From the NCBI RefSeq assembly GCF_000739875.1, contig NZ_BBJR01000044.1:1-64000 (forward strand): 64,000 bases of DNA, written 5' to 3'. The stretch is from Comamonas aquatica NBRC 14918. GTDB taxonomy: Bacteria > Pseudomonadota > Gammaproteobacteria > Burkholderiales > Burkholderiaceae_C. The notes below the pieces were generated by a model, which was not told the origin of the DNA, did not search any database, and saw nothing but the letters and a program-made list of their open reading frames with translations. Below are positions 10,033 through 63,258 of the stretch, one piece after another. Within the stretch, counting starts at the first letter, position 1; the number at the start of each line of letters is the position of its first letter. The translations under genes and the position numbers were made by a program.

Positions 10033-11355
10033 ATGCCCCAGCCGCAGCGCATCGCCATCGTGGGCGGCGGCTGGGCCGGCATGGCCGCCGCCGTCGCCCT
10101 GCAGCAGCAGGGCCACCAGGTGCAGGTCTGGGAAGCCAGCCGCCAGTGGGGCGGCCGTGCACGCGCACTGGACATTCCCGCACCCGACGGTGGCCACTGG
10201 ACGGTCGACAACGGCCAGCACATCCTGATCGGCGCCTACCAGGCCTGCCTGCAGCTGCTGCGCACCGTCGGCGTGGAAGCCGCAGCCCTGCAGCGCCTGC
10301 CGCTGGATCTGCGCTACGCCGATGGCCAGGGGCTGCACCTGCCCGACTGGCCTCCGCCCTGGGACGCGGCCTGGGGCATTGCCTGCGCCCGCGGCTGGCA
10401 CTGGCGTGAGAAGCTGGCCCTGCTGCGCACGGCCCAGCGCTGGCAGCGCCAGCAGTTCCAGTGCCCGGCCAGCGCCAGCGTGGCCGACCTGTGCCAGGGC
10501 CTGCCGGCGCGCCTGCTGCAGGACTTTGTCGATCCTCTGTGCATTTCGGCCCTGAACCTGCCGGCCAGCGCCGCCAGCGGGCAGATCTTCTTGCGGGTGC
10601 TGCAGGATGGGCTGTTCAGCGGACGGGGCGGCTCCAACCTGCTGATTCCGCGCACCGACCTGTCCACCCTGTTCCCGGCCACGGCCGCCGCCTGGCTGCA
10701 GCAGCGCGGTGCCCGGCTGCGCCTGGGTGAACGCGTGCAGGCCCTCACCCCCCCGACAGACCATGGCGCTGCCTGGCAGGTGGATGGCGAAAACATGGAT
10801 GCCGTGGTGCTGGCCACGCCCTGCGCCGAGGCGGCACGCCTGGTGCAGGCCCTGCAGGGGGTGCCCGCACCGCTGTCCGGGCGCACCACCGCCTGGGCCA
10901 ACTGCGCACAGGCGCTGCCGCACACGGCAATCGCCACGGTCTATGCCCACACAGCGCAGGGCCCTGGCCTGCCGGCGCCCATGGTGGCCCTGCGCAGCCA
11001 GGCGGACGCCCCCGCGCAGTTCGCCTTTGACAAGGGGCAACTGGGTGGGCCGGCCGGCCTGCTGGCCCTGGTGGTCAGCGCCAGCCAGGGCGATAAGGCA
11101 TTGCTGCAGTCGCAGGTGCTGGCGCAAGCCCGCACGCAGCTGCGCCTGCCCGATCTGCAGCCGCTGAAAACCGTGGTCGACAAGCGCGCCACCTTTGCCT
11201 GCACGCCCGGCGTGCAGCGCCCCGCTGCCGACATCCTGCCGGGCCTGTGGGCCTGCGGCGACTATGTGCAAGGCCCCTACCCTGCCACGCTGGAAGGCGC
11301 GGTGCGCAGCGGCCTGCAGGCGGCTGCGGCGGTGGGCAACTTTCTAAAAACATAG
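10033..11355 (+). CDS. hpnE: Hydroxysqualene dehydroxylase HpnE
   Basis: The 440-residue FAD-dependent amine-oxidase-like protein has a Rossmann start IAIVGGGWAGMAAAVAL and a C-terminal FAD-contact block (WACGDYVQGPYPATLEGA). HpnE reduces hydroxysqualene to squalene, completing the HpnCDE route towards hopanoids or other squalene products. No squalene-hopene cyclase gene is in the window. TAAGGG lies just upstream of the ATG, overlapping the hpnD stop region. The last residues FLKT and the stop codon are already part of the dispersed repeat that follows. Confidence 0.92.
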   Translation: MPQPQRIAIVGGGWAGMAAAVALQQQGHQVQVWEASRQWGGRARALDIPAPDGGHWTVDNGQHILIGAYQACLQLLRTVGVEAAALQRLPLDLRYADGQGLHLPDWPPPWDAAWGIACARGWHWREKLALLRTAQRWQRQQFQCPASASVADLCQGLPARLLQDFVDPLCISALNLPASAASGQIFLRVLQDGLFSGRGGSNLLIPRTDLSTLFPATAAAWLQQRGARLRLGERVQALTPPTDHGAAWQVDGENMDAVVLATPCAEAARLVQALQGVPAPLSGRTTAWANCAQALPHTAIATVYAHTAQGPGLPAPMVALRSQADAPAQFAFDKGQLGGPAGLLALVVSASQGDKALLQSQVLAQARTQLRLPDLQPLKTVVDKRATFACTPGVQRPAADILPGLWACGDYVQGPYPATLEGAVRSGLQAAAAVGNFLKT

Positions 11356-11436
11356 CTGCTAGCGCTTAAAGACAAAGCACTTCAGGCCTTTTATGACCCG
11401 AAGTGCTTGCATCGCATGCGCTGACAGCTATGGTTT
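11346..11436. repeat. Dispersed palindromic repeat, copy A (convergent spacer)
   Basis: Outer arms CATAGCTGCTAGCGC (11351) and GCGCTGACAGCTATG (11418) enclose a perfect inner stem AAGCACTTC / GAAGTGCTT (11375 and 11400). The element starts inside the last codons of hpnE and fills the spacer to the convergent DUF2788 gene, so it may end transcription from both sides. Confidence 0.75.
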
Positions 11437-11445
11437 AAGAAGCGA

Positions 11446-47015: not shown

Positions 47016-47294
47016 GGGCGGCCGCCCGCGCCCGCAATAACCTCGAACCCTGAGCGGTTATCGCCCGGTTTTTGCGGGCCCGGGGAACGGTGGCCGCAAC
47101 GCCCGCCCGGCCCATGCGCCTGGGGCGCTATGCATAGCGAAGCACTCTGCTGTAAGACATAAATCCCAAGCAATCCTAAGCCCATCCTGCACATCGCGCT
47201 ATCAAAAATATCAGCAGAATGCCCGTTTCGCCGCGCATGCCGGGTGCATGCGCGCAGCCGCAACAACATTCGATAGCACAGGCAGGAAACAACA

Positions 47295-48602
47295 ATGGGT
47301 GAAGCGCAGCAGGACAAGGCCGCACGGGTCGTGATCGTGGGGGGTGGGGTCGCGGGGCTGGAAATCGCCTCGGCACTGGGCAAGCTGCGCGACCCGCACA
47401 CCGCCTCGGTGACCCTGGTCGATGCCGATTCCGCCCACGTCTGGAAGCCCATGCTGCACACGATTGCCGCCGGCACGCGCGACCTGGCGCAGCAGCAGAC
47501 CACCTACCTGGCCCAGGCCACGGACGCCCGCTTCGCCTACCAGCCCGGCGCCATGGAAGGGCTGGACCGCGCACGCAAGGAAATCATCCTGTCCGCCATC
47601 TGTGCCCCCGACGGGCGTGAAATGGTGCCCGCGCGCCGCATCGGTTACGACAAGCTGGTCATCGCTGTCGGCAGCGGGGCCAACGACTTCGGCACGCCCG
47701 GCGTGCTGGAGCATTGCTACATGATCGATTCGCGCCGCAAGGCCGACGACTTCAACCGCGAAATCCGCCTGCGCATGGTGCGCGGCATGACCGAGGGCGA
47801 GACCCTGCAGGTGGCCATCGTCGGCGCCGGCGCCACCGGCGTGGAGCTGGCAGCCGAGCTGGTGCAGCTGTCCGAAAGCGCCGAAGCCTATGGCGCGCTG
47901 GGGCGGGCCGCCAAATTCCGCATCGTGCTGATCGAGGCCGGGCCGCGCATCCTGCCCAGCTTCCCCGAGGAGATCTCCCAGGCCACCCAGCAGCGCCTGG
48001 AGCACCTGGGCGTGCGGGTGCTGGTCGGCCGCCGCGTGCAGGCGGCACTGGCCAACGGCCTGCTGCTGGATGGCGACGAGGTCATCCCCGCCGGGCTCAG
48101 CGTCTGGGCCGCCGGCGTGAAGGCGCCCAGTTTCCTGGCCCAACTGGGCCTGCCCGTCACGCGCGGCAACCAGTTGATCGTGAACGACGACCTGCAGACC
48201 GCCGACCCCGACATCTACGCCGTGGGCGACTGCGCCAGCTACACCCTGCCCGGCCAGAGCACACCGCTGCCGCCCACCGCCCAGGTGGCCCACCAGCAGG
48301 CGCGCTACCTGATCGAACTGCTGCCCAAGGTGCTGGCCAGCCGCCAGCCGTATGCCGGCAAGGGCTTTGCCTACCGCGACTTCGGGGCGCTGGTGTCGCT
48401 GGCCAACTACGACGCCTATGGCTCGCTGGGCAAGTTCGGGCTGTTCAACGGCGGCATGATCAAGGGCCGGCTGGCCATGCTCAGCCACATCTGGCTGTAC
48501 CGCTCGCACCAGGCGCGCCTGTACGGCTTCTGGCGCGGCGGCCTGCTGTGGCTGGTGGATTTGATGAACTCCCGCCTGCGCCCCACCATCCGGCTGGATT
48601 GA
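47295..48602 (+). CDS. ndh: Type II NADH:quinone oxidoreductase
   Basis: The 435-residue membrane-attached flavoprotein passes electrons from NADH to quinone without pumping protons. It has an FAD-binding start VVIVGGGVAGLEIASALG, an NADH-binding fold VAIVGAGATGVELAAELVQ, and DIYAVGDCASY plus TAQVAHQQARYL for FAD/quinone contact. The C-terminal amphipathic helix (SHIWLYRSHQARLYGF...) attaches it to the membrane. GGCAGGAAACAAC precedes the ATG. It is a single gene; the 279-base spacer behind tctE shows a small stem ATAACC / GGTTAT near 47037. Confidence 0.93.
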   Translation: MGEAQQDKAARVVIVGGGVAGLEIASALGKLRDPHTASVTLVDADSAHVWKPMLHTIAAGTRDLAQQQTTYLAQATDARFAYQPGAMEGLDRARKEIILSAICAPDGREMVPARRIGYDKLVIAVGSGANDFGTPGVLEHCYMIDSRRKADDFNREIRLRMVRGMTEGETLQVAIVGAGATGVELAAELVQLSESAEAYGALGRAAKFRIVLIEAGPRILPSFPEEISQATQQRLEHLGVRVLVGRRVQAALANGLLLDGDEVIPAGLSVWAAGVKAPSFLAQLGLPVTRGNQLIVNDDLQTADPDIYAVGDCASYTLPGQSTPLPPTAQVAHQQARYLIELLPKVLASRQPYAGKGFAYRDFGALVSLANYDAYGSLGKFGLFNGGMIKGRLAMLSHIWLYRSHQARLYGFWRGGLLWLVDLMNSRLRPTIRLD

Positions 48603-48726
48603 CCCCAAGCGCCGCTAACCCCCAGCCCATCGAAGATTGGCGTCCGAGACGCAGCGTAAAGCCGCAGGCAGTCCCCGCGTACGACCAGGCCCAGCAACGA
48701 CGTACCAGGGGTCACGCTAGTGGGTA

Positions 48727-48822
48727 TAAAAAATGGAGCTGACCACGCAGCCCCTCCGCGCTTTTCAGAACGATTCGCTTTGAAATGCAGGCGGAAGGCG
48801 CGCAGTCAGCTCCTTTTTTTGA
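48727..48822. repeat. Dispersed palindromic repeat, copy F (convergent spacer)
   Basis: The arms AAAAAATGGAGCTGACCACGC and GCGCAGTCAGCTCCTTTTTTT flank a less regular inner part with CCTCCGC / GCGGAAGG. It lies between the convergent ndh and cobT stops and can terminate both. Confidence 0.75.
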
Positions 48823-48829
48823 AAAAGCT

Positions 48830-49909
48830 TCAGCCGGCCTTGGTAGCCACGCCGGCCGAGGTGAAGCTGGCCATCTCGCGCAGGATGGCGCAGGCCGCGG
48901 GCAGCAGCGGCCAGGCTGCCGCCGCCCCGGAACCCTCGCCCAGGCGCAACTGCCAGTCCAGCAAGGGCCGCGCACCCAGCGCCTGCAGCAGCAGGGTGTG
49001 GCCGGGCTCGCCGGAGCGGTGGGCGTACACGCAGCGCTGCAGCACCGCAGGCTGCAGGCGGCTGGCCACCAGCACCGCCGCCGTGGTGATGAAGCCATCG
49101 ACCACGATCACGCGCCGCTCGGCCGCGGCCTGCAGCACGGCGCCGACCATGGTCGCCACCTCCAGCCCACCCATGGCGGCCAGCACCGGCAGCGGCTCGG
49201 TCACGGCGGCATGCGTCTGCAGCACCTGCAGCAGCAAAGCGATCTTGCGTTGCACGCCCTGCGGATCCAGGCCCGTGCCCATGCCCGTGACCTCCGCCAC
49301 GGACACACCGCACAGCCGCGACAGCAGCAGCGAGGCGGTGGAGGTGTTGCCAATCCCCATCTCGCCCAGCAGCAAGGCATTGCCCGGCAGGCGCTTGACC
49401 AGCTCCACCCCGTTGCGGATGGCCAGCGCGCATTCCTGCTCGGTCATGGCTGGACCCTGGCTGCAGTCCTGCGTGCCATAGGCCACCTTGCGACGCCACA
49501 GGCGCGGCTGGCCGGCCTTGGGCAGCTTGTCCTCGGGGTCCTGCTCGCGGGCGGCAAAGTCGCGCGCCACGCCGCAGTCCACCACATTCAGGGCAATGCC
49601 ATGCTGGCGCGCCAGCACGCTCACGGCCGCGCCGCCGGCCATGAAGTTCTCCACCATCTGCCAGGTCACGTCCACGGGGTAGGCCGACACACCGCGCGCC
49701 GCCAGGCCATGGTCGGCCGCAAACACCACCATCTGCGGCGCCTCCAGCACCGGGGTGTCGCTGCCCAGGATGCAGGCCAGGCGGTGCGCCAGCTGCTCCA
49801 GCACGCCCAGGGAGCCCACGGGCTTGGTCTTCACGTCCAGCAAGCCCTGCACATGGGCGGCAAATGTGGCGTCCTCGATCGAAGCCACGTCAGGAATCAC
49901 GGTCGACAT
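48830..49909 (-). CDS. cobT: Nicotinate-nucleotide:dimethylbenzimidazole phosphoribosyltransferase
   Basis: The 359-residue CobT activates 5,6-dimethylbenzimidazole as alpha-ribazole phosphate for the cobalamin lower loop. Family blocks are DHGLAARGVSAYP, MAGGAAVSVLARQHGI, LLLGEMGIGNTSTASLL (with the catalytic Glu) and VDGFITTAAVLVA. The start at 49909 is preferred over the ATG at 49915 because GAGGG then has normal spacing. A terminator-like hairpin lies only 22-40 bases upstream. It is the last gene of the cobalamin block; BluB, which makes its substrate, is encoded in the same block. Confidence 0.94.
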   Translation of the reverse strand: MSTVIPDVASIEDATFAAHVQGLLDVKTKPVGSLGVLEQLAHRLACILGSDTPVLEAPQMVVFAADHGLAARGVSAYPVDVTWQMVENFMAGGAAVSVLARQHGIALNVVDCGVARDFAAREQDPEDKLPKAGQPRLWRRKVAYGTQDCSQGPAMTEQECALAIRNGVELVKRLPGNALLLGEMGIGNTSTASLLLSRLCGVSVAEVTGMGTGLDPQGVQRKIALLLQVLQTHAAVTEPLPVLAAMGGLEVATMVGAVLQAAAERRVIVVDGFITTAAVLVASRLQPAVLQRCVYAHRSGEPGHTLLLQALGARPLLDWQLRLGEGSGAAAAWPLLPAACAILREMASFTSAGVATKAG

Positions 49910-49929
49910 TTCCATCCCTCATCACACAC

Positions 49930-49949
49930 AAAAAAGGCGCTCCAGCGCC
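49930..49949 (-). terminator. Terminator-like hairpin directly before cobT
   Basis: The stem GGCGC / GCGCC with a 4-base loop is followed on the minus strand by T6 and then, after about 16 bases, by the cobT start. As it lies before, not after, a gene, it may be an attenuator or a second barrier to read-through. Confidence 0.55.
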
Positions 49950-50010
49950 CGGGCCCAAGTATGCGCCTGCGTCCATGGCCTTGCCCCGCACCACATCAAT
50001 CGCGGGCAAG

Positions 50011-50032
50011 AAAAAACCCGGCCAGGCCGGGT
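50011..50032 (-). terminator. Terminator of the His/Met-rich protein gene
   Basis: The palindromic stem ACCCGGCC / GGCCGGGT is followed on the minus strand by T6. It lies 26 bases beyond the stop. Confidence 0.8.
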
Positions 50033-50057
50033 CGGGGGTACTGGGCAGCGCAGGCGC

Positions 50058-50609
50058 TTACTTGCGCATCGGCTCCATGGGCTGGGGCATCGGCTGCTGC
50101 ATCATGGGCGCGTGCGGCATGGGCTGCTGCATCATGTGGGGGTGCTGGGCGGGCGGTGCGGCGGGCACCTCGATGGTCTGGGTGTATTCGCGGATCACCC
50201 CCCCGCCCTCGACGCTGCCGGAGAGCTGCGGTTGCTGCACGCGCGCCACACAGGCACTGCGGTCCAGCTCCTTGAAGATGTCGCAGCGGCGCAAGGCGTT
50301 GCGCTGCAGTTCATCCATGCCCATGCCCGGGGGGTTGACCGGCCCCTGCCCGCGGCGCTGTTCCGCCGCGACGGCCGCGGCCTCGCGCTGCTGCGGGCTC
50401 ATGGCCGTGCCCTGGGTCCCGTGGTGCGGCATGGCGCGATGGTGCGGCGCCTTGGCCGGATGGTGGGGGGCTGCAGGGTGGTGCGCCCCAGGGGTGAGCG
50501 CAGCGGGAGCGGACGCGGGAGCAGCGGTTTGCGCCTGGGCCAAGCTTGCGCCGGCCAGTGCCACCATGCACAGGCCCAGGCGCCAGGAAGGGGTCCATTG
50601 CAACTTCAT
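50058..50609 (-). CDS. Secreted His/Met/Pro-rich protein in the cobalamin block
   Basis: The 183-residue protein has a signal peptide (MKLQWTPSWRLGLCMVALAG..., cleavage near AQA-Q). A low-complexity region of His pairs follows (HHPAAPHHPAKAPHH, PHHG), then a small domain with two cysteines (LRRCDIFKELDRSACVARVQ) leading into SGSVEGGGVIREY. The C-terminal tail repeats MMQQPMP twice. The Cys/GSVEGGG pattern is one I recall from small secreted proteins of unknown function in this family of bacteria. His and Met runs suggest metal binding; the neighbouring genes suggest cobalt, which is speculation. AAGGAG lies 9 bases before the ATG. Confidence 0.65.
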   Translation of the reverse strand: MKLQWTPSWRLGLCMVALAGASLAQAQTAAPASAPAALTPGAHHPAAPHHPAKAPHHRAMPHHGTQGTAMSPQQREAAAVAAEQRRGQGPVNPPGMGMDELQRNALRRCDIFKELDRSACVARVQQPQLSGSVEGGGVIREYTQTIEVPAAPPAQHPHMMQQPMPHAPMMQQPMPQPMEPMRK

Positions 50610-50727
50610 CAAAGCATTCTCCTTGGATGACAAACAATGCCAACAGCATGCCTGCCATGGCCCGGCATGGACTATCAGCCCAGCCCGCCCAGCCTTGCAG
50701 GCACAAGCCTACAACCGTAGCACCCGC

Positions 50728-52227
50728 TTACACCTCTTGCGCAAACCAGGCCTGCACGCCCTCGGCCAGGCGGGCAAACACCACCTCCAGCGACGGGGCC
50801 TGGGCGCCGAACAAGGCCTGGACAAAGGCCGTGTTCTCCAGCATGCCGTGCCAGTAGGTGCCCCAAATGTGGCCGGGGCCGTTCTGCCAGACCAGGCCCG
50901 GCACCACCTCCCGGGAACGCTGCGGCTGGCCGGCCTCCATGTCGGTGCGCAGCTGCGTCTGGCCGTGGTGGATTTCATAGACGTCCAACGCCATGCCCGC
51001 CAGCGACGACCAGGGCCCGTGCAGCGCCGGCAGGTGCACGCGCACGCGGCGCACGGTCTTGTCCGGCGCAAACAGCGTGACCAGTGGCAGCAGGCCCAGG
51101 CCGGCGGCGTTACCGTCCACACCGTGCAGGTCGATCAGGGCCTCGCCCAACATCTGCAGCCCCCCGCAAATGCCCAGCACCCGGCGCCCGGCATGGGCAT
51201 GCGCCACGACCGCAGCGTCCAGCCCCTGGCTGCGCATCCAGTCCAGGTCGGCCGCCGTGGCCTTGGAGCCCGGCAGGATCACCCAGTCCGCACCCTGCAG
51301 TTGGGCCGGGCTGCGCGCCCAGACCACGCGCACGCCGGGCAGGTTCAGCAACGGCTGGAATTCATCGTGGTTGCTCATGCGCGGATAGGCCACGATGGCC
51401 ACCGTGGTGTGGATGGCCCCGGCGCCCGTGCTGCGGGCATCGAACACGCCGTCCTCCTCGGGCAGGCCATGGTTCCACTGCATGGGGATGGTGGCCACCG
51501 TGGGCACGCCGGTACGCTCCTGCAGCATCTGCGGCGCCGGGGCCAGCAGGCGTGCATCGCCCCGGAACTTGTTGAGCACGAAGCCGCGCAGCAAGGCCTG
51601 CTCCTCGGGCGGCAGCAGGGCCCAGGTGCCGTACAGGTGGGCGAAGGCGCCGCCCCGGTCGATGTCCGCCACCAGCAGGCAGTGCGCCTGGCCATGCCGG
51701 GCCACGCGCATGTTGACCACATCGCTGCTGTGCAGGTTGATCTCGGCCGGGGAGCCGGCCCCCTCGATCACCACCACGTCGTTCTCGGCCCGCAGGCTGT
51801 CCAGGGCCTGGGCAATCTGCGGCCACACGTGCTGGCTGCGCCCGCGCCAGGGCATGGCCGACAGCGCGGCATCCACCTGGCCCAGCAGCACCACCTGGCT
51901 GCGCGTGTCGGCCTCGGGCTTGAGCAGCAGCGGGTTCATGCGCACATCGGGCACGCAGCCGGCGGCCAGGGCCTGCAGGTACTGGGCCGTACCGATCTCG
52001 CCCCACTGCCCGTCCGGCGTGGCCACCACGCGGGCGTTGTTGCTCATGTTCTGCGCCTTGAAAGGCGCCACCTTGTAGCCCTGGGCGCGGTACCAGGCGC
52101 ACAGGGCCGTGGCCACCCAGCTCTTGCCGGCGTTGCTGCTGGTGCCCAGCACCATGACGCACAGGGCCTGGGTCTGCCCGGGCTGCGGCCGCGGCAGGCG
52201 GACGGGATCGAATGCGGTCGGACTCAT
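50728..52227 (-). CDS. cobQ: Cobyric acid synthase (amidotransferase)
   Basis: The 499-residue enzyme amidates four carboxyls of adenosylcobyrinate a,c-diamide. It has an N-terminal P-loop-like synthetase domain (VMVLGTSSNAGKSWVATALC, KAQNMSNNARVV) and a C-terminal triad glutaminase domain with Cys in VLGICGGLQMLGE and His in GTYWHGMLEN. The start overlaps the stop of the decarboxylase gene by 4 bases. Missing corrin-ring genes mean its substrate would come from elsewhere in the genome or from salvage. Confidence 0.94.
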   Translation of the reverse strand: MSPTAFDPVRLPRPQPGQTQALCVMVLGTSSNAGKSWVATALCAWYRAQGYKVAPFKAQNMSNNARVVATPDGQWGEIGTAQYLQALAAGCVPDVRMNPLLLKPEADTRSQVVLLGQVDAALSAMPWRGRSQHVWPQIAQALDSLRAENDVVVIEGAGSPAEINLHSSDVVNMRVARHGQAHCLLVADIDRGGAFAHLYGTWALLPPEEQALLRGFVLNKFRGDARLLAPAPQMLQERTGVPTVATIPMQWNHGLPEEDGVFDARSTGAGAIHTTVAIVAYPRMSNHDEFQPLLNLPGVRVVWARSPAQLQGADWVILPGSKATAADLDWMRSQGLDAAVVAHAHAGRRVLGICGGLQMLGEALIDLHGVDGNAAGLGLLPLVTLFAPDKTVRRVRVHLPALHGPWSSLAGMALDVYEIHHGQTQLRTDMEAGQPQRSREVVPGLVWQNGPGHIWGTYWHGMLENTAFVQALFGAQAPSLEVVFARLAEGVQAWFAQEV

Positions 52228-53246
52228 GCCAACTCCTTGAGGTTCATCGCCGCCCAGGCCTGCGCCAGGGCCTGCTGGGAGGCCGGCGGCAGCACGCCCA
52301 GGCGCACACAGCCGGGCAGGCCAAAGCTGTGGGCATCGCGCAGCTTGATGCCCTGCGCGCGCAACACGGCCAGGGCCTGCGCCATGCGCGCCTGCCCGTC
52401 CTGGGGCCAGCGCGCCACGAAATAATTGGCCCGGTGCCCCGGCAGCACCTGCCAGCCCAGCCGGGCACACAGCTGCACTTGCTGCGCCTTCCAGGCCCGC
52501 AGCTGCACCAGGCTGGCCTGCAGCCAGGCCTGCACCGGCGGGGTGGTCCAGGCCTGCAGCATGGCCACGCCGTGGGCCCCCACCACCCAGGAGGGGGCCA
52601 GATCGCGCAGCGCCGCCAGCTCCTGCGGCGTGGCCTGTACGGGCGCAATCGCGTAAGCGGCGCGCACCCCGGTCATGCCCAGGGCCTTGTTGGGGGTCCA
52701 CATCTGCCACACGTGGTCCAGGTTCGGCTGCACCGCGGCCGGCTCCAGCTGCAACGGGACATAGGCGCAGTCCAGCACGCGCCAGGCCCCCGCCGGGGCC
52801 GGCGATGGCCACAGCGGCCAGACGTCCTCGTCCAGGCCCAGGGGGCTGGACGGGGCACAGGCCCAGTGCAGCCCGGGGCCACCCGCGTGCGGGCTGCGCG
52901 GAACCACCGGCAACTGCCACAGACGCGCGGCATGCGGGTAGTCGCCATAGTGGTGCGGCGGCAGGCTGACCTGGCGGGCCCCGCTGCGCACGGCATGCAG
53001 GGTCAGGCGGTGGATGCATTCGCTGGCACTGCCGGCCAGCAGCACGCGCGCCGGGTCCACGCCGTGGAAGGCCGCGAGGGCTGCGCGCAGGTCGGTGTAG
53101 GCCGGGTCCGGGTACTGGGCCACGTGCGCGGCCTGCAGCGCCGCCACGACCTGCGGGCACGGGCCGCAGGCATTGCGATTGGTGGAAAAATCGTGCGCCG
53201 GCACGCCCAGTGCGTCCGTGCCACCGTGGATCTGGGCCTCAGCCAT
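52224..53246 (-). CDS. cobC: Threonine-phosphate decarboxylase-like aminotransferase (CobC/CobD)
   Basis: The 340-residue fold I PLP enzyme has HDFSTNRNACGP near the N-terminus, VLDCAYVPL (Asp for PLP) and the PLP lysine in TPNKALGMTGVRAAYA. In this genomic setting it should make (R)-1-amino-2-propanol phosphate from threonine phosphate for CbiB to attach. It overlaps cbiB by 8 bases and cobQ by 4. The name differs between systems: cobD in Salmonella, cobC in Pseudomonas. Lower similarity than its neighbours leaves some doubt over exact substrate. Confidence 0.85.
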   Translation of the reverse strand: MAEAQIHGGTDALGVPAHDFSTNRNACGPCPQVVAALQAAHVAQYPDPAYTDLRAALAAFHGVDPARVLLAGSASECIHRLTLHAVRSGARQVSLPPHHYGDYPHAARLWQLPVVPRSPHAGGPGLHWACAPSSPLGLDEDVWPLWPSPAPAGAWRVLDCAYVPLQLEPAAVQPNLDHVWQMWTPNKALGMTGVRAAYAIAPVQATPQELAALRDLAPSWVVGAHGVAMLQAWTTPPVQAWLQASLVQLRAWKAQQVQLCARLGWQVLPGHRANYFVARWPQDGQARMAQALAVLRAQGIKLRDAHSFGLPGCVRLGVLPPASQQALAQAWAAMNLKELA

Positions 53247-54306
53247 GGGCGATCACCCCCAGGCCCAGCAGCACCACCAGCGCGGCCACCGCGCAGGCCC
53301 CGACCACGCGCGCGGCCAGGCCCACGGCCTGCTGCACCTGCGCGGCCTGGGGCACCTGGCCCTGCGGGTTCAGCACATAGACGCCGGGCTTGCCCAGGCG
53401 CACGCCCAGGGCCAGCGCCATGCAGCCCATGGGCCAGCCGCCATTGGGCGAAGGCGTGATGGCCGCATCGCGGCGCAACGCGGACCAGGCCACGCCATGT
53501 GCCACGCCGGCCAGCAGCAGGGCCGTCAGGCGCGCAGGCAACCAGTTCAGCACATCGTCCGCACGCGCTGCCCATTTGCCGGCCCACTGCCAGTGGCGGC
53601 GCTGCGCGCCCTGCCCGCGCCAACCCGGGTAGCCCCACATGGCATCGGCGGTGTTGGCCAGCCGGTACAGCGCCGCGCCCGGCAGGCCGGCCAGCAGGAA
53701 CCAGAACAAGGGAGCGATGACGGAGTCGCTGAGGTTCTCAGCCAGGGTCTCGATCACGCTTTCGCGCACCGTGCCCGCGTCCAGCTGCGTGGTGTCGCGG
53801 CTGACCAGCCAGGACAGGCGCTCGCGCCCTGCGGGCAACGACTGCTGCAGGGCGGCCTCGACGGCCAGCACCTCGTCCTGGAGCATGCGCCACGCCAGCA
53901 GCGGCTTGAGCAGCACGCCCAGCACCAGGCCCTGCCCCCACCAGGCCTGCGGTGGCAACAGCCACTGGCACAGGGCATAGACCACAAAAAAGAGAGCTGC
54001 CAGCGCGCACCACGCGGTCATTCCCAGTACAAAAGACCTGTAATCCCTGGTTCTTTCAGCGCAGGGCGCTATCCATTTACCCAAGGCCCCCAGCAGCTTG
54101 CCCATCAGCACCACGGGGTGCAGCCACACAGGGGGTTCGCCCCACAGGCGGTCCAGCAGCAGGGCCACCAGCACCGCCAGCGCGGCCGACATGAGTTGCT
54201 GCGCCCAGAAAAGCTGCGAGGCGCCCTCGGCGCCCCACAGTTGCCAGGCCCAGGCCAGCGGGCTCAGGGCCACGGCCAGCACGGCCGTCACATCCATAGC
54301 GATCAT
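53239..54306 (-). CDS. cbiB: Adenosylcobinamide-phosphate synthase CbiB, with a repeat-derived segment
   Basis: The 355-residue inner-membrane enzyme attaches aminopropanol phosphate to adenosylcobyric acid. Family marks are LLLDRLWGEPPVWLHPVVLMGK, SVIAPLFWFLLAGLPGAALYR and ANTADAMWGYPGWRGQGA. Residues about 77-108 (KWIAPCAERTRDYRSFVLG and the next dozen) are encoded by a copy of the dispersed repeat at 53984-54078. They replace the usual basic link between the first conserved block and the next helix, and the reading frame is kept. The ATG overlaps the bluB stop by 4 bases, and the gene overlaps the decarboxylase gene by 8. Confidence 0.92.
   Translation of the reverse strand: MIAMDVTAVLAVALSPLAWAWQLWGAEGASQLFWAQQLMSAALAVLVALLLDRLWGEPPVWLHPVVLMGKLLGALGKWIAPCAERTRDYRSFVLGMTAWCALAALFFVVYALCQWLLPPQAWWGQGLVLGVLLKPLLAWRMLQDEVLAVEAALQQSLPAGRERLSWLVSRDTTQLDAGTVRESVIETLAENLSDSVIAPLFWFLLAGLPGAALYRLANTADAMWGYPGWRGQGAQRRHWQWAGKWAARADDVLNWLPARLTALLLAGVAHGVAWSALRRDAAITPSPNGGWPMGCMALALGVRLGKPGVYVLNPQGQVPQAAQVQQAVGLAARVVGACAVAALVVLLGLGVIAHG
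53984..54078. repeat. Dispersed palindromic repeat, copy G, inside cbiB
   Basis: The arm ACAAAAAAGAGAGCTGCCAGC matches the AAAAAAGAGAGC arms of copies B and C. The far arm reads TTCAGCGCAGGGCGCTATCC, as in copy H (TTCAGCGCCAGGCGCTATCT). The inner part has AAAAGACCTGTAATCCCTGGTT. The element is about 95 bases and is read through in frame by cbiB. Confidence 0.75.
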
Positions 54307-55016
54307 TCCATCTCGGCCGGTGGCGGGGTCTGCGGCGCCTGCCCCCAGCGTTCTTCAAACAGCATGTCCTGCAGGGGCGCGCGGGCGGCCCACTTTTCCT
54401 GCTGCAGCATGGGTTCGGCGTAATAGGCCTGCACCGGCCCCAGGCACAGCACGGCCAAGGGGTAGCTGCCGGCCGGCATCTCCAACAACTGGGCCAGGGC
54501 CTGCGGGTCGTAGATCGACACCCAGCCCATGCCCAGCCCTTCGGCGCGCGCGGCCAGCCACAGGTTCTGGATGGCGCAGGCGGCCGAGGCCAGGTCCATC
54601 TCGGGCATGGTGCGGCGACCGAACACATGGGCCTCGCGCCCGGGCGGCAGGGCCACCACCAGCAGCTCAGCAGCGTCCAGCACGCCCTGCACCTTGAGCT
54701 GCATGAAATCTTCCTCGCGCTCGCCCAGGGCCTGGGCGGTGAGCACGCGCTCCTGCTCCACCAGCGTGTGGATGCCTTCGCGCAGCGCGCGCTCCCGCAC
54801 GCGGATGAAGCGCCACGGCTGCATGAAGCCCACGCTGGGCGCATGGTGGGCGGCGCGCAGCAGGCGCAGCAGCACCTCGTCACTGACCGTGCCGCCGGCA
54901 AAGTGGCGCATGTCGCGCCGCTCATGGATGGCGCGGTAGACGGCCGCCCGCTCGCTGTCCGTGAACGCGGTGGCGGCAATCGTGCGGTAGTGGTCGAGGT
55001 CGTGGGTGTCGTTCAT
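54303..55016 (-). CDS. bluB: 5,6-dimethylbenzimidazole synthase
   Basis: The 237-residue nitroreductase-fold enzyme cannibalises reduced FMN with oxygen to make 5,6-dimethylbenzimidazole. The N-terminal RRDMRHFAGGTVSDEVLLRLL, PSVGFMQPWRFIRVR and GMGWVSIYDPQALAQLL are characteristic of BluB. It supplies CobT. It lies 10 bases behind cobO and is coupled to cbiB by a 4-base overlap. Confidence 0.94.
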   Translation of the reverse strand: MNDTHDLDHYRTIAATAFTDSERAAVYRAIHERRDMRHFAGGTVSDEVLLRLLRAAHHAPSVGFMQPWRFIRVRERALREGIHTLVEQERVLTAQALGEREEDFMQLKVQGVLDAAELLVVALPPGREAHVFGRRTMPEMDLASAACAIQNLWLAARAEGLGMGWVSIYDPQALAQLLEMPAGSYPLAVLCLGPVQAYYAEPMLQQEKWAARAPLQDMLFEERWGQAPQTPPPAEME

Positions 55017-55026
55017 GCTGCGATTG

Positions 55027-55596
55027 TCAGTCTTCGATGCCCCGCTGCGCAGGGACCCCCGCCTGGAAGGCGTGCTTGATCATCTGCATCTCGGTCACGG
55101 TATCGGCCATATCGATGATTTCCTGCGGGCAGCGGCGGCCCGTCAGGCAGACGTGCACGTCCTTGGGGCGCGCACGCAGAGTGTCGAGCACCTCCTGCAG
55201 GGGCAACCAGCCATAGATCAAGGGATACGTCACTTCGTCCAGCACCACCAGGAAATAGTCACCCGACAGGATGTCGGCCTTGGCCTTGTCCCAGCCTTCG
55301 CGGGCCAGCTGCGCCGACTGCTCCAGGTCCTTGCTCTTCCAGCTGAAGCCATCGCCCAGGCCCTGCACGGGCAGGCCCACCTGGTCGGCCAGGCGGTGCT
55401 CGCCAAAGCGTGCCGTGGGCACCTTCATGAACTGGTAGACCTTGACGGCCTTGCCACGGCCCGTTGCACGGAAGGCCAGGCCAAAGGCCGCCGTGGTCTT
55501 GCCCTTGCCATTGCCGGTGTTGACGATGACCAGGCCGCGGCGCTCGCCATCGGGCTTCTCGTAGGGTTTGGTGGAAGGTGGGGTTTCGATTTGCAT
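55027..55596 (-). CDS. cobO: Corrinoid adenosyltransferase (CobO/BtuR)
   Basis: The 189-residue ATP:cob(I)alamin adenosyltransferase has the P-loop VNTGNGKGKTTAAFGLAFRA, VYQFMKVPTARFGE and LDEVTYPLIYGWL. It adds the upper 5'-deoxyadenosyl ligand. The ATG at 55596 is set by the family start; the frame is open 50 codons further up through the spacer. The 172-base spacer to cbiM holds stem-loops (55739-55761 and a GGCAC/GTGCC stem at 55663 near T6), so a new promoter or partial terminator may lie here. Confidence 0.93.
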   Translation of the reverse strand: MQIETPPSTKPYEKPDGERRGLVIVNTGNGKGKTTAAFGLAFRATGRGKAVKVYQFMKVPTARFGEHRLADQVGLPVQGLGDGFSWKSKDLEQSAQLAREGWDKAKADILSGDYFLVVLDEVTYPLIYGWLPLQEVLDTLRARPKDVHVCLTGRRCPQEIIDMADTVTEMQMIKHAFQAGVPAQRGIED

Positions 55597-55768
55597 AACA
55601 GAAGGGTCCCCGCGTGCAGCGCACGCCGGGTGAACAAGGTCCTGGCATCCAGGAAAAAAGCAAGGCACGGCGTGCCCTGCACGGGTAGCGGGTACCCACC
55701 GGCCGCGCGCAGGACGCCGCACCGGTGGAACGGGGCACGGGCGCACAGGGGATGTGCGCCCGCCGGCT

Positions 55769-56446
55769 TCAGACGGCCTGGTAGACGCGGCGCTCCAGCA
55801 CGGCGCTGCCCTGCAGGCGGCGCCAGGACTTGGCCGCGGCCAGCACGGCCAGATCGATCAGGGGCTCCAGCAGCACCACGGTCATGTAGGCCGCGCCAAA
55901 GCTGCCGATGCTGGCGAGGTTCTCTGCGCCCACACCATGGCCGTAGATCGCCCAGAAGCCCACCCACAGCACAATGCCGCCCTGGTAGGCCACCGACAGC
56001 TTGAAGGTCTGGGCATAGCTCAGGTCCACATAGGCCATGTCGGCCGGAATCACCCGGCGCGCCAACACGGCCGTGGCGAACAGCGGCACCAGCAAGGTGG
56101 TCACGTTCATGCCGTACTGCGGCAGATCCTGCGGCGCAAAGAACAGGCTTTGCACCAGCAGGCCGGCCGCCAGGCCGATGGCCGCCGGTGCTGCGCCGAA
56201 GATGAGCAGCAGCGTGGTGCCCAGGATCAGGTGCACCTCGGACACCCCGACCGGGTGGTGCGGAAACACTTCAAAGAAGGCAAACACCAGGGCCGTGGCC
56301 ACCACCGAGCGCAGCAACAGGGCCTGCACGCTGTTGCTGCGCACCATGTCCCAGGCCAGCTTGGCGGTATAGGCCAACGCCGCCGTGGCCGTGGCATAGC
56401 TCAGCAGAATCTTGGTTCCATCGACGAGACCGGGTTCGATATGCAT
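55769..56446 (-). CDS. cbiM: CbiM-family cobalt-uptake membrane protein
   Basis: The 225-residue protein begins MHIEPGLVDG, the N-terminal motif in which His2 binds cobalt or nickel in CbiM/NikM. Six or seven membrane helices and EVHLILGTTLLLIFGAAPAAIGL follow. In complete systems CbiM works with CbiN, CbiQ and CbiO, none of which is seen here. A solitary CbiM may use a shared energy unit or act alone at low rate (inference). AAAGGAAATCTGCG precedes the ATG. It sits between btuD and cobO. Confidence 0.85.
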   Translation of the reverse strand: MHIEPGLVDGTKILLSYATATAALAYTAKLAWDMVRSNSVQALLLRSVVATALVFAFFEVFPHHPVGVSEVHLILGTTLLLIFGAAPAAIGLAAGLLVQSLFFAPQDLPQYGMNVTTLLVPLFATAVLARRVIPADMAYVDLSYAQTFKLSVAYQGGIVLWVGFWAIYGHGVGAENLASIGSFGAAYMTVVLLEPLIDLAVLAAAKSWRRLQGSAVLERRVYQAV

Positions 56447-56506
56447 CGCAGATTTCCTTTCAGAGTGGGTGCTTGCGAAGAAGCGGGAGGGACGAAAAAA
56501 CAGGGT

Positions 56507-57301
56507 TCAGCCGGGCAGTGCCATCCACATGTCCTCGACCTGGCGGATGCGGATGCGCTGGTCGAACACCGCCTCCAGCGCGGCGTGCGTGGCCGCATCG
56601 TGCGTGGCGCCCTGGTGCAGCACCCGCCCGGCCTGCATGACCAGCATGTGGTCGGACTGCAGGGCAATGCCCAGCTCGTGCAGCACGCTGACCACGGTAT
56701 GGCCTTGGCGCACCAGTTGCTGCACGGTCTGCATCCAGTCGCTCTGGTGCGGCGGGTCCAGGTTGGCCAGGGGCTCATCCATCAGCACCACCTGCGCCTG
56801 CACGGCCAGGGTGCGGGCCAGCAGCACGCGCTGGCGCTCGCCCCCGGACAGTTCGGCCAGCGGGCGATGGCGCCAGTCCCAGGCCTGCGTCATCTCCAGG
56901 CACTGCCGCACCACGGCGTGGTCGTAGGCACTGGGGGGGGCCAGCCAGGCTTGGTGGGGCAGGCGTCCCAGCATGACCACGTCATAGCTGCACAGCTCCT
57001 GCGCCACCGCTTCGTTCTGCCCCATCCAGGACAGGGCGCGCGCACGCTGCCGGCCCGACCATGCGGCCAAGGGGCGGCCCAGCAGGTCCAGTTGGCCCTG
57101 CCAGGCCTTGCGCGGCTGCAAACCCGCCAGGGCCCGCAGCAGCGTGGATTTGCCGGCGCCGTTCGGGCCGACCACGGCGGTCCAGCGCTGGGCCGGCACC
57201 TGCACCTGCACACCATGCAGCAGCAGCTGGGCACCGGCGGACACCCGCAGGTCACGCGCCTGCAGGGCGGGGGATGACGTCAAGATGGGCACCTCGGTCA
57301 T
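56507..57301 (-). CDS. btuD: Cobalamin ABC transporter ATPase
   Basis: The 264-residue ATPase has Walker A GPNGAGKSTLLRALAG, the Q-loop region SWMGQNEAVAQEL, signature LSGGERQRVLLARTL, Walker B VVLMDEPLANLD and a switch His in VSVLHELGIAL. It powers vitamin B12 import through BtuC. The ATG lies 3 bases beyond the btuC stop. Confidence 0.92.
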   Translation of the reverse strand: MTEVPILTSSPALQARDLRVSAGAQLLLHGVQVQVPAQRWTAVVGPNGAGKSTLLRALAGLQPRKAWQGQLDLLGRPLAAWSGRQRARALSWMGQNEAVAQELCSYDVVMLGRLPHQAWLAPPSAYDHAVVRQCLEMTQAWDWRHRPLAELSGGERQRVLLARTLAVQAQVVLMDEPLANLDPPHQSDWMQTVQQLVRQGHTVVSVLHELGIALQSDHMLVMQAGRVLHQGATHDAATHAALEAVFDQRIRIRQVEDMWMALPG

Positions 57302-57304
57302 GGT

Positions 57305-58342
57305 CTAGCCCCGCACCTGCCGGGCCGCATGGCCCCGGTGCATCAGCCACAGCAGGTAGCTGCCGCCCAGCAAGGCAGTCAGCACGCCCACGGGCAATTC
57401 CTCGGGCGCCATCACCCAGCGCGCCAGGATGTCGGCCACCAGCAGCACCACGCCGCCCATCAGACTGGCCAGCCAGATGCTGCGGGCATGGCCCACGCGC
57501 ACCATGCTGCGCACCAGGTGGGGCGCGGCCAGGCCCACAAAGGCGATCAATCCGGTCTGCGCCACCGCCGTGCCCGTGGCCAGCGCCATCACGGCGATCA
57601 GGCCGGCGCGCATGGGCGCCAGCGGCAGGCCCAGGCTGGCGGCCGTGGATTCGCCCAGCGTCAGCGCATCCAGCACCCGGGACAAGGCCCAGGCCACGCC
57701 GCTGCACAGGGCCCAGGCCCCGAGCAGCAGCGCGCAGGCCGGCCAGCCGATGAAGGCCGTGCTGCCCAGGCCAAAGGCCTTCATGGGCTGCAGGATGTCG
57801 GGGTAGCGCAGCTCCAGCATGTCGCGCACGGCGCCCAGCACCACGCCCACCACCACACCGGCCAGCAGCATGCGCAGGCTGTTTTGCACGCCCTGCGCCA
57901 GCACCAGCGTCAGCACCACCGCTGCGGCCGCGCCGGCAAACGCCATGCCGGTCATGCCCAGGCGCTGCATCCAGGCCATGCCGATGGCCGCGGTACCGCT
58001 GAGCACCATGGCCAGCGCGCCGCCCAGGGCCGCGCCCGAGGCGCTGCCCAAAAGGTACGGGTCGGCCAGCGGGTTGCGAAACAGCCCCTGGGCCACGGCA
58101 CCCGCCAAGCCCAGCAAGGCCCCGGCAAGCCAGGCGCCCAGGGTGCGCGGCAGGCGGATGTCCCAGACGATCTGCTGCACCACCGGGTCGTCCCGCAGCG
58201 ACCACATGCTTTCCCAGCCGGTGCTGCCCACGCTGGCGCCCAGAAGCAGCAACACGGCGGTCAGCGCCAGCAGGCCTGCGGCCAGCCAGCGGCTGCGCGC
58301 GGCTTCGTGCGACAGGGCGCCCTGTGGCGGGTTACGGTGCAT
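57305..58342 (-). CDS. btuC: Cobalamin ABC transporter permease
   Basis: The 345-residue FecCD-family permease has about ten helices, LPRTLGAWLAGALLGLAGA, GLFRNPLADPYLLGSASGA and TGLIAFVGLAAPHLVRSM. With BtuD and BtuF it imports corrinoid across the inner membrane. The start at 58342 overlaps the end of btuF by 11 bases. Confidence 0.92.
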   Translation of the reverse strand: MHRNPPQGALSHEAARSRWLAAGLLALTAVLLLLGASVGSTGWESMWSLRDDPVVQQIVWDIRLPRTLGAWLAGALLGLAGAVAQGLFRNPLADPYLLGSASGAALGGALAMVLSGTAAIGMAWMQRLGMTGMAFAGAAAAVVLTLVLAQGVQNSLRMLLAGVVVGVVLGAVRDMLELRYPDILQPMKAFGLGSTAFIGWPACALLLGAWALCSGVAWALSRVLDALTLGESTAASLGLPLAPMRAGLIAVMALATGTAVAQTGLIAFVGLAAPHLVRSMVRVGHARSIWLASLMGGVVLLVADILARWVMAPEELPVGVLTALLGGSYLLWLMHRGHAARQVRG

Positions 58343-59252
58343 GGCGGGGGGCCTTGTCACGCAGGCAGCGGGCGATGATGCGCGCGGCCTCGTCCATGCG
58401 GGGGCCGGGGCGCACGACGATGCTGGACTCGCGGGCATCGAAGGCGCAGATGCGCTGCTGCCGAACCGCCTCCAGCGTGGTCCAGCCCGGGTAGGTGTGC
58501 GCCAGCTGCATGCTGTGGTTGCCCATCATGATCACGTCGGGGCGGGCGCGCACAATGAATTCGGGGTTTAGGCGCGGAAACGGCCCCATCGCATCGGGCA
58601 CCACGTTGCGCATGCCCAGGCGCGTCAGCAGCTCGCCGATGAAGGACGATGGCCCGGCCGCAAACGGGCCGCGGCTGACCTCGAAGTACACCCGCCCGCC
58701 CTGCACGCCGGCAGGCAGCGTGCGCGCTGCGGCATCGATGCCGTCCTGCATGCGTTGCCACTGCTGCTGCACCTGCGCCGGCGGCAGGCGCAGCAGGTGG
58801 CCCACGCTGTGCAGCACGCGCTGCACATCGGCTTGGGTGCGCGGCTCCAGCGCCACGGTGCGCAGGCCCAGGGCCTCCAAGCGCTCCACCACGCGGGCCG
58901 AGTTGGACAGCAGCACCACATCGGGCTTGAGGGCGACGATGGCCTCGACGTTCGGGTCCAGGCCGCCGCCCAGCACGGGCAACCTGCGCTGCAGGTCTTC
59001 GGGCCAGTTGGAATAGCGGTCCACGCCCACCAAGCGGTCGCAGGCGCCCAGGGCGCAGACGGTTTCCGTCAGCGACGGCAGCAGGCTGACGATGCGCTGC
59101 GGCGCCTGCACGCGCGCCACCGGGCGGCCGCGATCATCCTGGGCCCCCAACGCCGCCAGGTCGGTCGCCGGATCGGCGGCCTGGACCTGGCCCAGACCGG
59201 CCGCCCACAGGCCCAGCGCCAGCCACAGGCTGCGGCGTGACAGCCGGATCAT
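58332..59252 (-). CDS. btuF: Periplasmic cobalamin-binding protein
   Basis: The 306-residue class III solute-binding protein has a signal peptide (MIRLSRRSLWLALGLWAAG, cleavage near VQA-A). It shows PQRIVSLLPSLTETVCALGA, VGVDRYSNWP and ALKPDVVLLSNS, all as in BtuF/TroA-like corrinoid receptors. The start at 59252 overlaps the cobU stop by 4 bases; a frame 16 codons longer lacks a signal sequence. Confidence 0.88.
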   Translation of the reverse strand: MIRLSRRSLWLALGLWAAGLGQVQAADPATDLAALGAQDDRGRPVARVQAPQRIVSLLPSLTETVCALGACDRLVGVDRYSNWPEDLQRRLPVLGGGLDPNVEAIVALKPDVVLLSNSARVVERLEALGLRTVALEPRTQADVQRVLHSVGHLLRLPPAQVQQQWQRMQDGIDAAARTLPAGVQGGRVYFEVSRGPFAAGPSSFIGELLTRLGMRNVVPDAMGPFPRLNPEFIVRARPDVIMMGNHSMQLAHTYPGWTTLEAVRQQRICAFDARESSIVVRPGPRMDEAARIIARCLRDKAPRHAP

Positions 59253-59851
59253 TTGAGCTGCAGCGGCAAGCCGGCCGCCATCAAGGTGACGTGGCGGCAC
59301 ACCTGCGCCACGTCCTGGTTCAGGCTGCCCAGGGCATCCACGAAGGCACGCACTTCGCGCCCCATGGGAATCACCCCCAGGCCAATTTCGTTGCCCACCA
59401 CCACCACCGGGCCGGGGCAGGTCGCCAGCACTTCCAAAAACAAAGCACGCTGCGCGCTCCAGTCCTGGGCTGGAGCCTGATCAGACCCAAAATCCACGCC
59501 CTCCATGGGCATCATCCAGTGCGTCAGCCACAGGGTCAGGCAATCGACCACCACCAGGGTCTGCGGCTGGCTGCAGGCCTGCAGCGCCTGCGCCAGGGCC
59601 CGCGGGGCCTCCTGGGTGCGCATGCCGGGCACGCGGACGGCACGGTCGTCCTGGTGGCGCTGGATGCGCTGGCGCATCTCGGCATCCCAGGCCTGGCCCG
59701 TGGCCAGGTAGACGGCCTCGCGCCCGGGAGCGCCGTCCAGCCAGGTGCGCGCCGCCTGCTCGGCCCGGCGGGTCTTGCCGCTTTTCTGGCCGCCCAGGAT
59801 CAATTCCTGCCAGGGCAGCGCGGGGGCGGAGGGTTGCATCGGAGAAGTCAT
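59249..59851 (-). CDS. cobU: Adenosylcobinamide kinase / GTP:adenosylcobinamide-phosphate guanylyltransferase
   Basis: The 200-residue bifunctional enzyme phosphorylates adenosylcobinamide and transfers GMP to it. It has P-loop ELILGGQKSGKTRRAE, YLATGQAWDAEMRQRIQRH (nucleotide and GMP-site residues) and VVVVGNEIGLGVIPMGRE. Also usable in cobinamide salvage, which fits the adjacent uptake genes. Its 5' end lies 15 bases behind cobB. Confidence 0.94.
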   Translation of the reverse strand: MTSPMQPSAPALPWQELILGGQKSGKTRRAEQAARTWLDGAPGREAVYLATGQAWDAEMRQRIQRHQDDRAVRVPGMRTQEAPRALAQALQACSQPQTLVVVDCLTLWLTHWMMPMEGVDFGSDQAPAQDWSAQRALFLEVLATCPGPVVVVGNEIGLGVIPMGREVRAFVDALGSLNQDVAQVCRHVTLMAAGLPLQLK

Positions 59852-59866
59852 GGTGTGGAGCGCAAA

Positions 59867-61264
59867 TTATGGCTGTGCGGCCGTGTCCCATTGCACGGGC
59901 TCGGCCCCCAGCAAGGCGGCCACGGCACGCGGGTGCGAGGGAAACCAGGCATGGAAGTAACTGGCATGGACGCTGCCGTGCTGGTAGATGGCCTCGCCCT
60001 TGTCGGGCGCCACCGGCTGCCGGGGGCGGCTGGTGCGCGCCACCTCGGCCGCCTGGCAGGTGAAGCGCGAGTAATGGAAGGTGTGCCCACGCAGCACCCC
60101 ACCCTGCAGCGCGCACTGCTGCATGCCCAGGCCGGCCAGGCGTTCCTGCATCCGCGCCTCGCCCGGCAGGATGCCCCACAGCGGCTGGCTCTGGTCCTGG
60201 GCATCGGTCATGCGCTGGCCCAGGGCCAGCATGCCGCCACATTCGGCCCACACGGGCTTGCCGGCCTGCACGTGCTGCTGCAGGTCGGCCTGCAGCCCGG
60301 TGTTGGCCGCCAGGGTGGCGGCGTGCAATTCGGGGTAGCCACCGGGCAGCCAGACGGCATCGCACACCGGCAGGCGCTCGCCCGCCAGGGGCGAGAAGAA
60401 GGCCAGGTTGGCGCCCATGGCCTGCAGGCAGTCCAGGTTGGCGGGGTAGATGAAGCTGAAGGCCGCATCGCTGGCCACGGCCACGGTGCGCCCGCGCAGC
60501 CAGGGCTGGGGGGCTGCCACGGGCTGCGCCGGGGCTTCAAACGCCACCGACCAGCGCTGCCAGTCCTGCCAGTCCATGCGCCCCAGGGGCGTGTCGGCCA
60601 GGGCATCGGCCGCGGCATTCAGGCGCGCCATGGCATCGGGCAGCTCGTGGGCCGCCACCAGGCCCAGGTGGCGCTCGGGCAGCAACTGCGCGTCCTTGCC
60701 CGGCCCCATGCGCTGCAAGCCGCCCAGCCACAGCTGTGGGTCGCGCAGGCTGCTTTGCAGCATCTGCGTGTGCATGCCGGTGGCCACGCGGTTGGCCAGC
60801 ACGCCGGCCCAGGGCACGCCCGGCTGGTACTGCTGCATGCCCAGCACCAACGCGCCAAAGCTGCCTGCCATGGCCGAGGCATCGACCACCAGCAGCACCG
60901 GCACGCCCAGCTGGGTGGCCAGATCGGCCGCGGTGGGGCTGCCGTCAAACAGGCCCATCACGCCTTCGATCAGGATCACATCGGCCTGCGCGGCCGCGGC
61001 ATGCAGGCGCGCGCGCACCTCGTCCATGCCCACCATCCAGCCATCGAGGTTGTGCACCGTGGCCCCGCTGGCCAGTTGGTGCCAGTACGGGTCCAGGTAA
61101 TCCGGCCCGCACTTGAAGACCCGCACGCGGCGCCCCTGGCGGGCATGCCAGCGCGCCAGCGCCGCGGTGATGGTGGTCTTGCCCTGGCCCGAAGCGGGGG
61201 CGGCAATCAGCACCGCCACGCAGTGGTGCACGGGAGGGGATGGAGGGGTGATCAGTGGTGACAT
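59867..61264 (-). CDS. cobB: Cobyrinate a,c-diamide synthase (CobB/CbiA)
   Basis: The 465-residue glutamine amidotransferase amidates the a and c side chains of cobyrinate or hydrogenobyrinate. It has an ATP-binding N-terminus LIAAPASGQGKTTITAALA, VILIEGVMGLFDGSPTAADLA, and a C-terminal glutaminase with Cys in VWAECGGMLALGQ and a His-containing HTFHYSRF block. GAGAG lies before the ATG, 55 bases beyond btuB. Whether the cobalt-early or cobalt-late route is used cannot be told. Confidence 0.93.
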   Translation of the reverse strand: MSPLITPPSPPVHHCVAVLIAAPASGQGKTTITAALARWHARQGRRVRVFKCGPDYLDPYWHQLASGATVHNLDGWMVGMDEVRARLHAAAAQADVILIEGVMGLFDGSPTAADLATQLGVPVLLVVDASAMAGSFGALVLGMQQYQPGVPWAGVLANRVATGMHTQMLQSSLRDPQLWLGGLQRMGPGKDAQLLPERHLGLVAAHELPDAMARLNAAADALADTPLGRMDWQDWQRWSVAFEAPAQPVAAPQPWLRGRTVAVASDAAFSFIYPANLDCLQAMGANLAFFSPLAGERLPVCDAVWLPGGYPELHAATLAANTGLQADLQQHVQAGKPVWAECGGMLALGQRMTDAQDQSQPLWGILPGEARMQERLAGLGMQQCALQGGVLRGHTFHYSRFTCQAAEVARTSRPRQPVAPDKGEAIYQHGSVHASYFHAWFPSHPRAVAALLGAEPVQWDTAAQP

Positions 61265-61319
61265 GCAAGCTCTCGGGGGTGCCCGCCAGGGCCACGGCGG
61301 GCAGATACAGCGTCGGCGG

Positions 61320-63191: not shown

Positions 63192-63258
63192 CACCAGATT
63201 CCACCCGTGTCAGCCTCCCCGCCGACCATGGGCAAACATGCCTGCCCTGGGGGCAGAC

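Follow-up and report, generated by a model that had tools for sequence, protein, structure and literature searches.

The cbiB gene in a 64,000-nucleotide stretch of the Comamonas aquatica NBRC 14918 genome (hereafter, the window) contains a genuine copy of a dispersed DNA element, as an initial annotation of the sequence had claimed: the copy scores 46.5 bits (E 2.5e-9) against a covariance model of the element and lies within one open frame (53239–54306, minus strand). We lean toward reading this copy as a DNA site recognized by its sequence, one that took shape inside cbiB when that was already coding and that several Comamonas lineages have kept for the sake of the DNA. Judged from its sequence, the dispersed element would be a DNA site read by sequence, most likely a candidate protein-binding site with two inverted half-sites. 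Its cbiB member would have arisen in pre-existing coding sequence through substitutions, possibly with gene-conversion patches, rather than by insertion, and would be kept as a DNA site in several Comamonas lineages with the protein remaining a normal CbiB. We infer that selection rather than conversion is the keeper, that a putative protein recognizes the site, and that its function lies perhaps in chromosome organization. The features concerned are as follows.

11340..11443 (model site 11344), no strand assigned: intergenic copy, 81.3 bits
22041..22144 (model site 22045), no strand assigned: intergenic copy, 50.2 bits
31017..31120 (model site 31021), no strand assigned: intergenic copy, 57.5 bits
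39047..39150 (model site 39051), no strand assigned: intergenic copy, 55.2 bits
48723..48825 (model site 48727), no strand assigned: intergenic copy at the B12 gene row's downstream end, flanked by a plus-strand gene and the convergent cobT, 57.2 bits
48830–49915: cobT, adjoining the element copy at 48723..48825
53239..54306, minus strand: cbiB (adenosylcobinamide-phosphate synthase), 355 aa; TIGR00380 212.8 bits (cut-off 165.9), Pfam CobD_Cbib 281 bits
53985..54084 (model site 53985), no strand assigned: intragenic element copy in cbiB, 46.5 bits on the plus strand and 36.5 bits on the minus strand (53981–54080)
53986..54006, plus strand: first arm of the cbiB copy, with AGCTGC and GCGC blocks identical to the family consensus; read on the minus strand, it encodes ALAALFF
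54058..54078, plus strand: second arm of the cbiB copy, diverged, where the protein retains IAP, from the commonest form
63253–63478, minus strand: cobalamin riboswitch, 76.8 bits
63553..63657 (model site 63558), no strand assigned: copy on the immediate upstream side of the cobalamin riboswitch that heads the B12 gene row, 58.7 bits

The element family is near-palindromic, dispersed, and ~100 bp long, with inverted arms. Its layout runs from an A-run through an AGCTGC..GCGC arm, an inner hairpin around TTTCAG..CTGAAA, and a mirror arm to a T-run, and its inverted half-sites (AGCTGC..GCGC and GCGC..GGCGCT) lie about 64 positions apart. The covariance model (CM R1) was seeded with 19 own-genome copies, the cbiB copy excluded, and found the seven window sites given above. 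A single-arm search gave five matches against 2.5 expected, not significant alone, and an ungapped repeat finder returned no family containing the cbiB copy, its inverted pair I2 linking two other copies. A search of window positions 44001–64000 against Rfam (E up to 1) returned the cobalamin riboswitch and one subthreshold mir-431 match only, with no element family. Two further repeat structures were seen. A short form of the element (~59 nt), in which both arms surround a short loop and the inner hairpin is absent, occurs in the own genome (C83:7696–7758, L140) and accounts for 9 of 15 strand hits in genome G055 (loci including L183, L187, L193, and L195). Separately, an inverted repeat (7678–7937 / 24954–25213; 260 nt, 79% complementary, 17 kb apart) perhaps represents paralogous coding segments.

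Across the own genome, at least 150 element matches were counted among the candidates listed, all of which were matches, and the true total is larger. Four stretches totaling 667 kb hold 60 sites, or ~1 per 11 kb. The other copies in the window are intergenic (6/6 by a crude codon-bias gene caller), as the initial annotation had also stated, with four of the six overlapping a neighboring gene's end or called start by 6–48 bases. Intergenic copies favor positions just past gene ends: neighboring 3′ ends lie within 60 bp in 44/70 cases and 5′ ends in 22/50, again by crude gene calls. A genic copy is indeed exceptional: at ≥30 bits, the cbiB copy alone is genic among the 45 sites in the 667 kb. 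Three others of the 60 sites were called genic, all weak (19.7–24.9 bits) and maybe the product of wrong start codons, and no further copy inside a gene was found at 59 loci checked (several of them the same site), a check in which the cbiB control passed. The 24.9-bit match at C103:137033 (own genome) lies in a called gene (135310–137253, minus strand), 121 bp from its called start; either a second intragenic copy or a miscalled start could explain it.

The cbiB gene sits within a row of B12 uptake and biosynthesis genes, and the cobalamin riboswitch precedes a BtuB-like gene (61320–63194). The element-bearing segment of cbiB corresponds to residues ~75–108, a loop and the start of the next helix. 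Its composition departs from its surroundings, with a GC content of 53% against 71–73% in the flanks and a GC3 of 0.56 against 0.88 for the whole gene.

We defined a carrier as a cbiB locus with an element match of at least 30 bits at the same place. A cbiB match was present in 59 genomes, the own genome included, and 56 were scanned for the element, leaving out G015 (half a gene, L117) and two with weak hits (G080 and G091). Eight of the 56 loci are carriers: the own locus (46.5–46.6 bits), C. kerstersii (L034, 54.5), C. testosteroni NFYY023 (L038, 52.4), C. terrae (L042, 45.6), L040 (40.4), C. jiangduensis (L094, 38.4), C. avium (L032, 37.6), and Comamonas MAG NTP6 (L036, 32.5). Below the threshold fall L100 (24.9 bits), L048 (21.4), L039 (17.9), and, from another genus, L102 (14.1). 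In 37 own-genome copies, 39 columns reach a conservation of 70% or more; each cbiB copy retains 29–34 of these, and the best-retained blocks are AGCT.C, GCGC, and GCT.

Synonymous recoding separates the DNA from the protein it encodes. With the protein fixed, synonymous codons were redrawn 5,000 times, using either the codon usage of the gene or a GC3 matched to the segment, for rows hand-picked from the aligned loci (21 in the first test, 22 in a repeat with other matrices). The observed element score was reached by 0/5000 recodings in each of the eight carriers under both codon schemes. A matrix of 37 copies that were not seeds, none of them found by cbiB similarity, again gave 0/5000 in all eight; a matrix of 20 copies from two other species gave 0/5000 in six carriers and 1/5000 in L032 and L040. 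Sliding along the window cbiB, the extreme block was codons 76–120 (z 4.2, 0/1000), followed by codons 31–75 (z 2.3, 12/1000).

Noncarriers span a wide range in the same test. With the 37-copy matrix, counts per 5,000 were 1 for L039, 5 for L100, 13 for L048, 16 for L102, 19 for L103, 48 for L108, and 57 for L098, and at least 182 for L033, L041, L045, L055, L110, L111, and L035. The foreign matrix gave 0/5000 for L048 and 30/5000 for L033, and gene codon usage gave 0/5000 for L039, L102, and L103. Low counts in noncarriers are taken as element remnants. Some bias in the test is possible, since L108 stands at 48/5000 although its genome has no match at E 1e-5.

Codon conservation among carriers is concentrated in the segment. 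At sites with the same residue, carrier pairs share the same codon at a frequency of 0.73 in the segment versus 0.56 elsewhere, and the segment exceeds the rest in 28/28 pairs, which are not independent; the corresponding values in noncarriers are 0.51 and 0.57 (12 chosen of 37 same-genus noncarriers). Amino acid identity in the segment is mostly below that of the rest of the gene, so the codon sharing is not due to protein constraint. In a CbiB tree built without the segment and without the five most distant CbiBs (L112–L116), carriers fall by eye in three places—{own, L032, L034, L036, L094}, {L040, L042}, and L038—with noncarriers interspersed. This pattern reflects either one old gain and several losses or several gains.

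Carriers are confined to genomes rich in the element, as judged by strand hits per genome (77 candidates scored in each). Of the genus genomes, 45 have an aligned cbiB; among them, carriers number 0/17 in genomes with three hits or fewer and 8/28 in those with more, and the cbiB score correlates with genome element count (rho 0.76, 45 genomes), a correlation confounded by ancestry because the element-free genomes represent a few clades. The best single contrast is Comamonas sp. NoAH 4 (G050), which is nested in a carrier clade, has three hits, and has no cbiB copy. Other element copies occur in the 31–40 kb around cbiB in 6/6 carriers examined; none was found in that interval in G050, G004, G022, or G013. 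No element match at E 1e-9 was found in 18/53 genus genomes, some of them incomplete, and whole clades placed in this genus are affected (Delftia, the C. koreensis group, and the genomes of L104–L107) where other genomes have dozens of matches, which reflects either clade-wide loss or lack of the element or variants that escape the model. Several element-rich genomes have no cbiB copy at ≥30 bits, including the C. testosteroni ATCC 11996 group (G013, 58/77 scored) and G040 (76/77), and the site is therefore not essential.

Recurrent ectopic gene conversion is a rival reading. On this view, the codons for CALAAL and IAP happen to resemble the arms, letting genomic copies overwrite parts of cbiB from time to time and leaving a site with no function. 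The carriers are restricted to element-bearing genomes, and their protein is itself nearer the element: null means under gene codon usage range from −13.5 to +18.4 in the eight carriers and are −22 or lower in 11/13 noncarriers tested (exceptions, L039 at −10.3 and L100 at −6.4). A donor is also available, as the GGCGCT-type arm of the cbiB copy is present in the intergenic window copies 39051 and 63558, which weakens one argument against conversion. However, most intergenic donors would bring strong pairing, seen in 0/8 cbiB copies, and descent under protein constraint would explain equally well why the lineages share an arm type. We regard conversion without function as unlikely, and continue to prefer a DNA site retained as such.

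That the site formed in existing coding sequence follows from the protein alignments. In the CbiB proteins of the 29 closest relatives, the segment (residues 75–108) aligns without a gap in 29/29. Within a wider set, same-genus rows L098, L106, and L107 differ by 3–5 residues in the segment, and the G..AW helix is still recognizable in other families (L113, L114, and L116). Relatives from clades or genera without detected elements (Delftia and L108) also have the IAP, F.LG, and AWC or FWC residues. Because homologues that include element-free relatives have the segment, the coding segment is older than the element copy. The gap-free alignment shows no sign of an MITE-type insertion adding DNA at cbiB, and the normal length of CbiB relative to its homologues shows none of a Rickettsia-type lengthening of the host protein. 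The proposal that a repeat had been inserted and then domesticated as coding sequence does not hold; its corollary, that the repeat supplies ~32 residues in frame, stands insofar as the copy is coding in an open frame, but no residues have been added.

An older event, in which an MITE or REPIN entered cbiB in an ancestor of the family, the old segment was deleted, and the repeat was then domesticated, we consider quite improbable. It would accommodate the weak residual recoding signal in other element-holding genera (L102 in G056 and L103 in G055), but it has against it the same gap-free alignments and the residues shared with element-free relatives, as well as the complement of transposases. 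At E 1e-6, Y1_Tnp (PF01797, RAYT) has no match in the own genome (G000) or in G010, G040, and G042, genomes with 58–77 element hits of 77 scored. It has a match in 35/53 genus genomes, and across these 53 its presence does not, by eye, track element counts.

Folding sets the cbiB copies apart from their intergenic counterparts. Against shuffles, five of the six intergenic window copies have fold z values of −5.1 to −10.2 and one of −1.9. The cbiB copies of the eight carriers range from −1.4 to +0.2 (window copy: coding strand +0.20, opposite strand −0.79). Dyad pairing amounts to 20–23/44 in the cbiB copies, compared with a median of 29 for the intergenic ones; in all eight carriers the pairing exceeds the null mean, but clearly so only in L032 (27/2000 recodings; 137–536/2000 in the other seven). 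No terminator-like site (a stable G+C-rich hairpin followed by a T-run) was found at the window cbiB copy. A terminator in cbiB is unlikely because the hairpin is not retained in the cbiB copies; the terminator-like structure that the initial annotation ascribed to this copy is not borne out, and an effect on the genes behind it finds no support in the folds. That the cbiB copy attenuates or terminates transcription at the RNA level within the B12 gene row, as the strong hairpins of intergenic copies adjoining gene 3′ ends might suggest, is for the same reasons very improbable, all the more so as dyad pairing stands clearly above the recodings in L032 alone. A sequence kept without a strong hairpin would instead favor recognition of the DNA sequence.

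Inherited chance resemblance is hardly credible: a lone arm is not significant and ordinary membrane-helix codons do resemble an arm, but the covariance-model score, the recoding tests, and the codon conservation among carriers contradict it. The initial annotation had named, as what would refute it, a segment that is ancestral and a match due to chance; the segment is ancestral at the protein level, but the chance match fails, with eight carriers at ≥30 bits and codons fitted to the element.

If the preferred reading of a retained DNA site is correct, spacing along the chromosome bears on what the site might do. The seven window copies lie 5.3–10.7 kb apart (CV 0.22, P = 0.0025 versus randomly placed intergenic sites); without the cbiB copy, a 14.8-kb gap (48727 to 63558) would span the B12 gene row. 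For all sites elsewhere, spacing gave CV 0.52 and P = 0.0005 in C103 (22 copies), 0.63 and 0.06 in C82 (15 copies), and 1.03 and 0.80 in C83 (16 copies); at ≥30 bits, P was 0.019, 0.0085, and 0.67, respectively, and at ≥40 bits, low P values occur in the window only. Even spacing, which would speak for a role in the chromosome, is not established. The B12 gene row itself has intergenic gaps (e.g., one of 142 bases following 49915, and two spanning 55–60 bases), so that an intragenic place was not forced. A bolder proposal, which we hold as possible yet doubtful, is that the element is a chromosome-organizing DNA site needed about every 10 kb and that, with ~14.8 kb of B12 genes lying between the copies at 48727 and 63558, one was written into cbiB by codon choice; if true, cbiB carries a dual code, and its silent sites serve the chromosome.

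When a conserved enzyme gene keeps such a copy for its sequence although the hairpin is not strong, this points to the DNA itself as what is recognized. Because the copy is also under coding constraint, the parts that the site needs (the arm blocks) can be told apart from the perhaps dispensable pairing, and the bases of interest reduce to a short list. Genomes in which hardly any copies or none were detected (Delftia, the C. koreensis group, and Comamonas sp. NoAH 4) provide a natural subtraction for a partner protein.

The usual explanations for palindromes dispersed in bacterial genomes are mobile debris, terminators, and mRNA stabilizers. The element resembles REP sequences and REPINs in its pair of conserved, inverted arms separated by a spacer, its hairpin, its high copy number, and its mainly extragenic location, often near gene 3′ ends (PMC3116915, PMC3733652), and intragenic REPs have been described (PMC3733652). 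Unlike REPINs, the consensus of 37 element copies shows by eye no GTAG or CGTC tag, and the cbiB copy is neither an insertion nor the bearer of a strong hairpin (z +0.20). Rickettsia palindromic elements (RPEs), as cited in PMC3733652, likewise place a repeat in frame in protein genes; RPEs are insertions (PMC3733652), whereas the segment in cbiB has normal length and is of ancestral origin. The enterobacterial RU-1/2/3 elements are small MITE-type repeats that, as in cbiB, serve as coding sequence (PMC2759123), but there the repeat is said to supply amino acids by fusion (PMC2759123), whereas in cbiB the coding sequence came first. Intragenic REPs and RPEs (PMC3733652), like RU elements (PMC2759123), are presented as insertions by which residues are added or supplied. 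PMC2267715 treats stem-loop families from 40 genomes; Comamonas, Delftia, and Acidovorax do not appear in its main text or in that of PMC3733652. Within a partial coverage of the literature on Comamonas and Comamonadaceae repeat families, no description of this element was found. Sites such as parS, matS, Chi, and uptake sequences are DNA motifs of ~8–16 bp maintained inside genes via codon choice. The cbiB element would likewise be a motif kept in a gene, but it spans 100 bp and has two arms.
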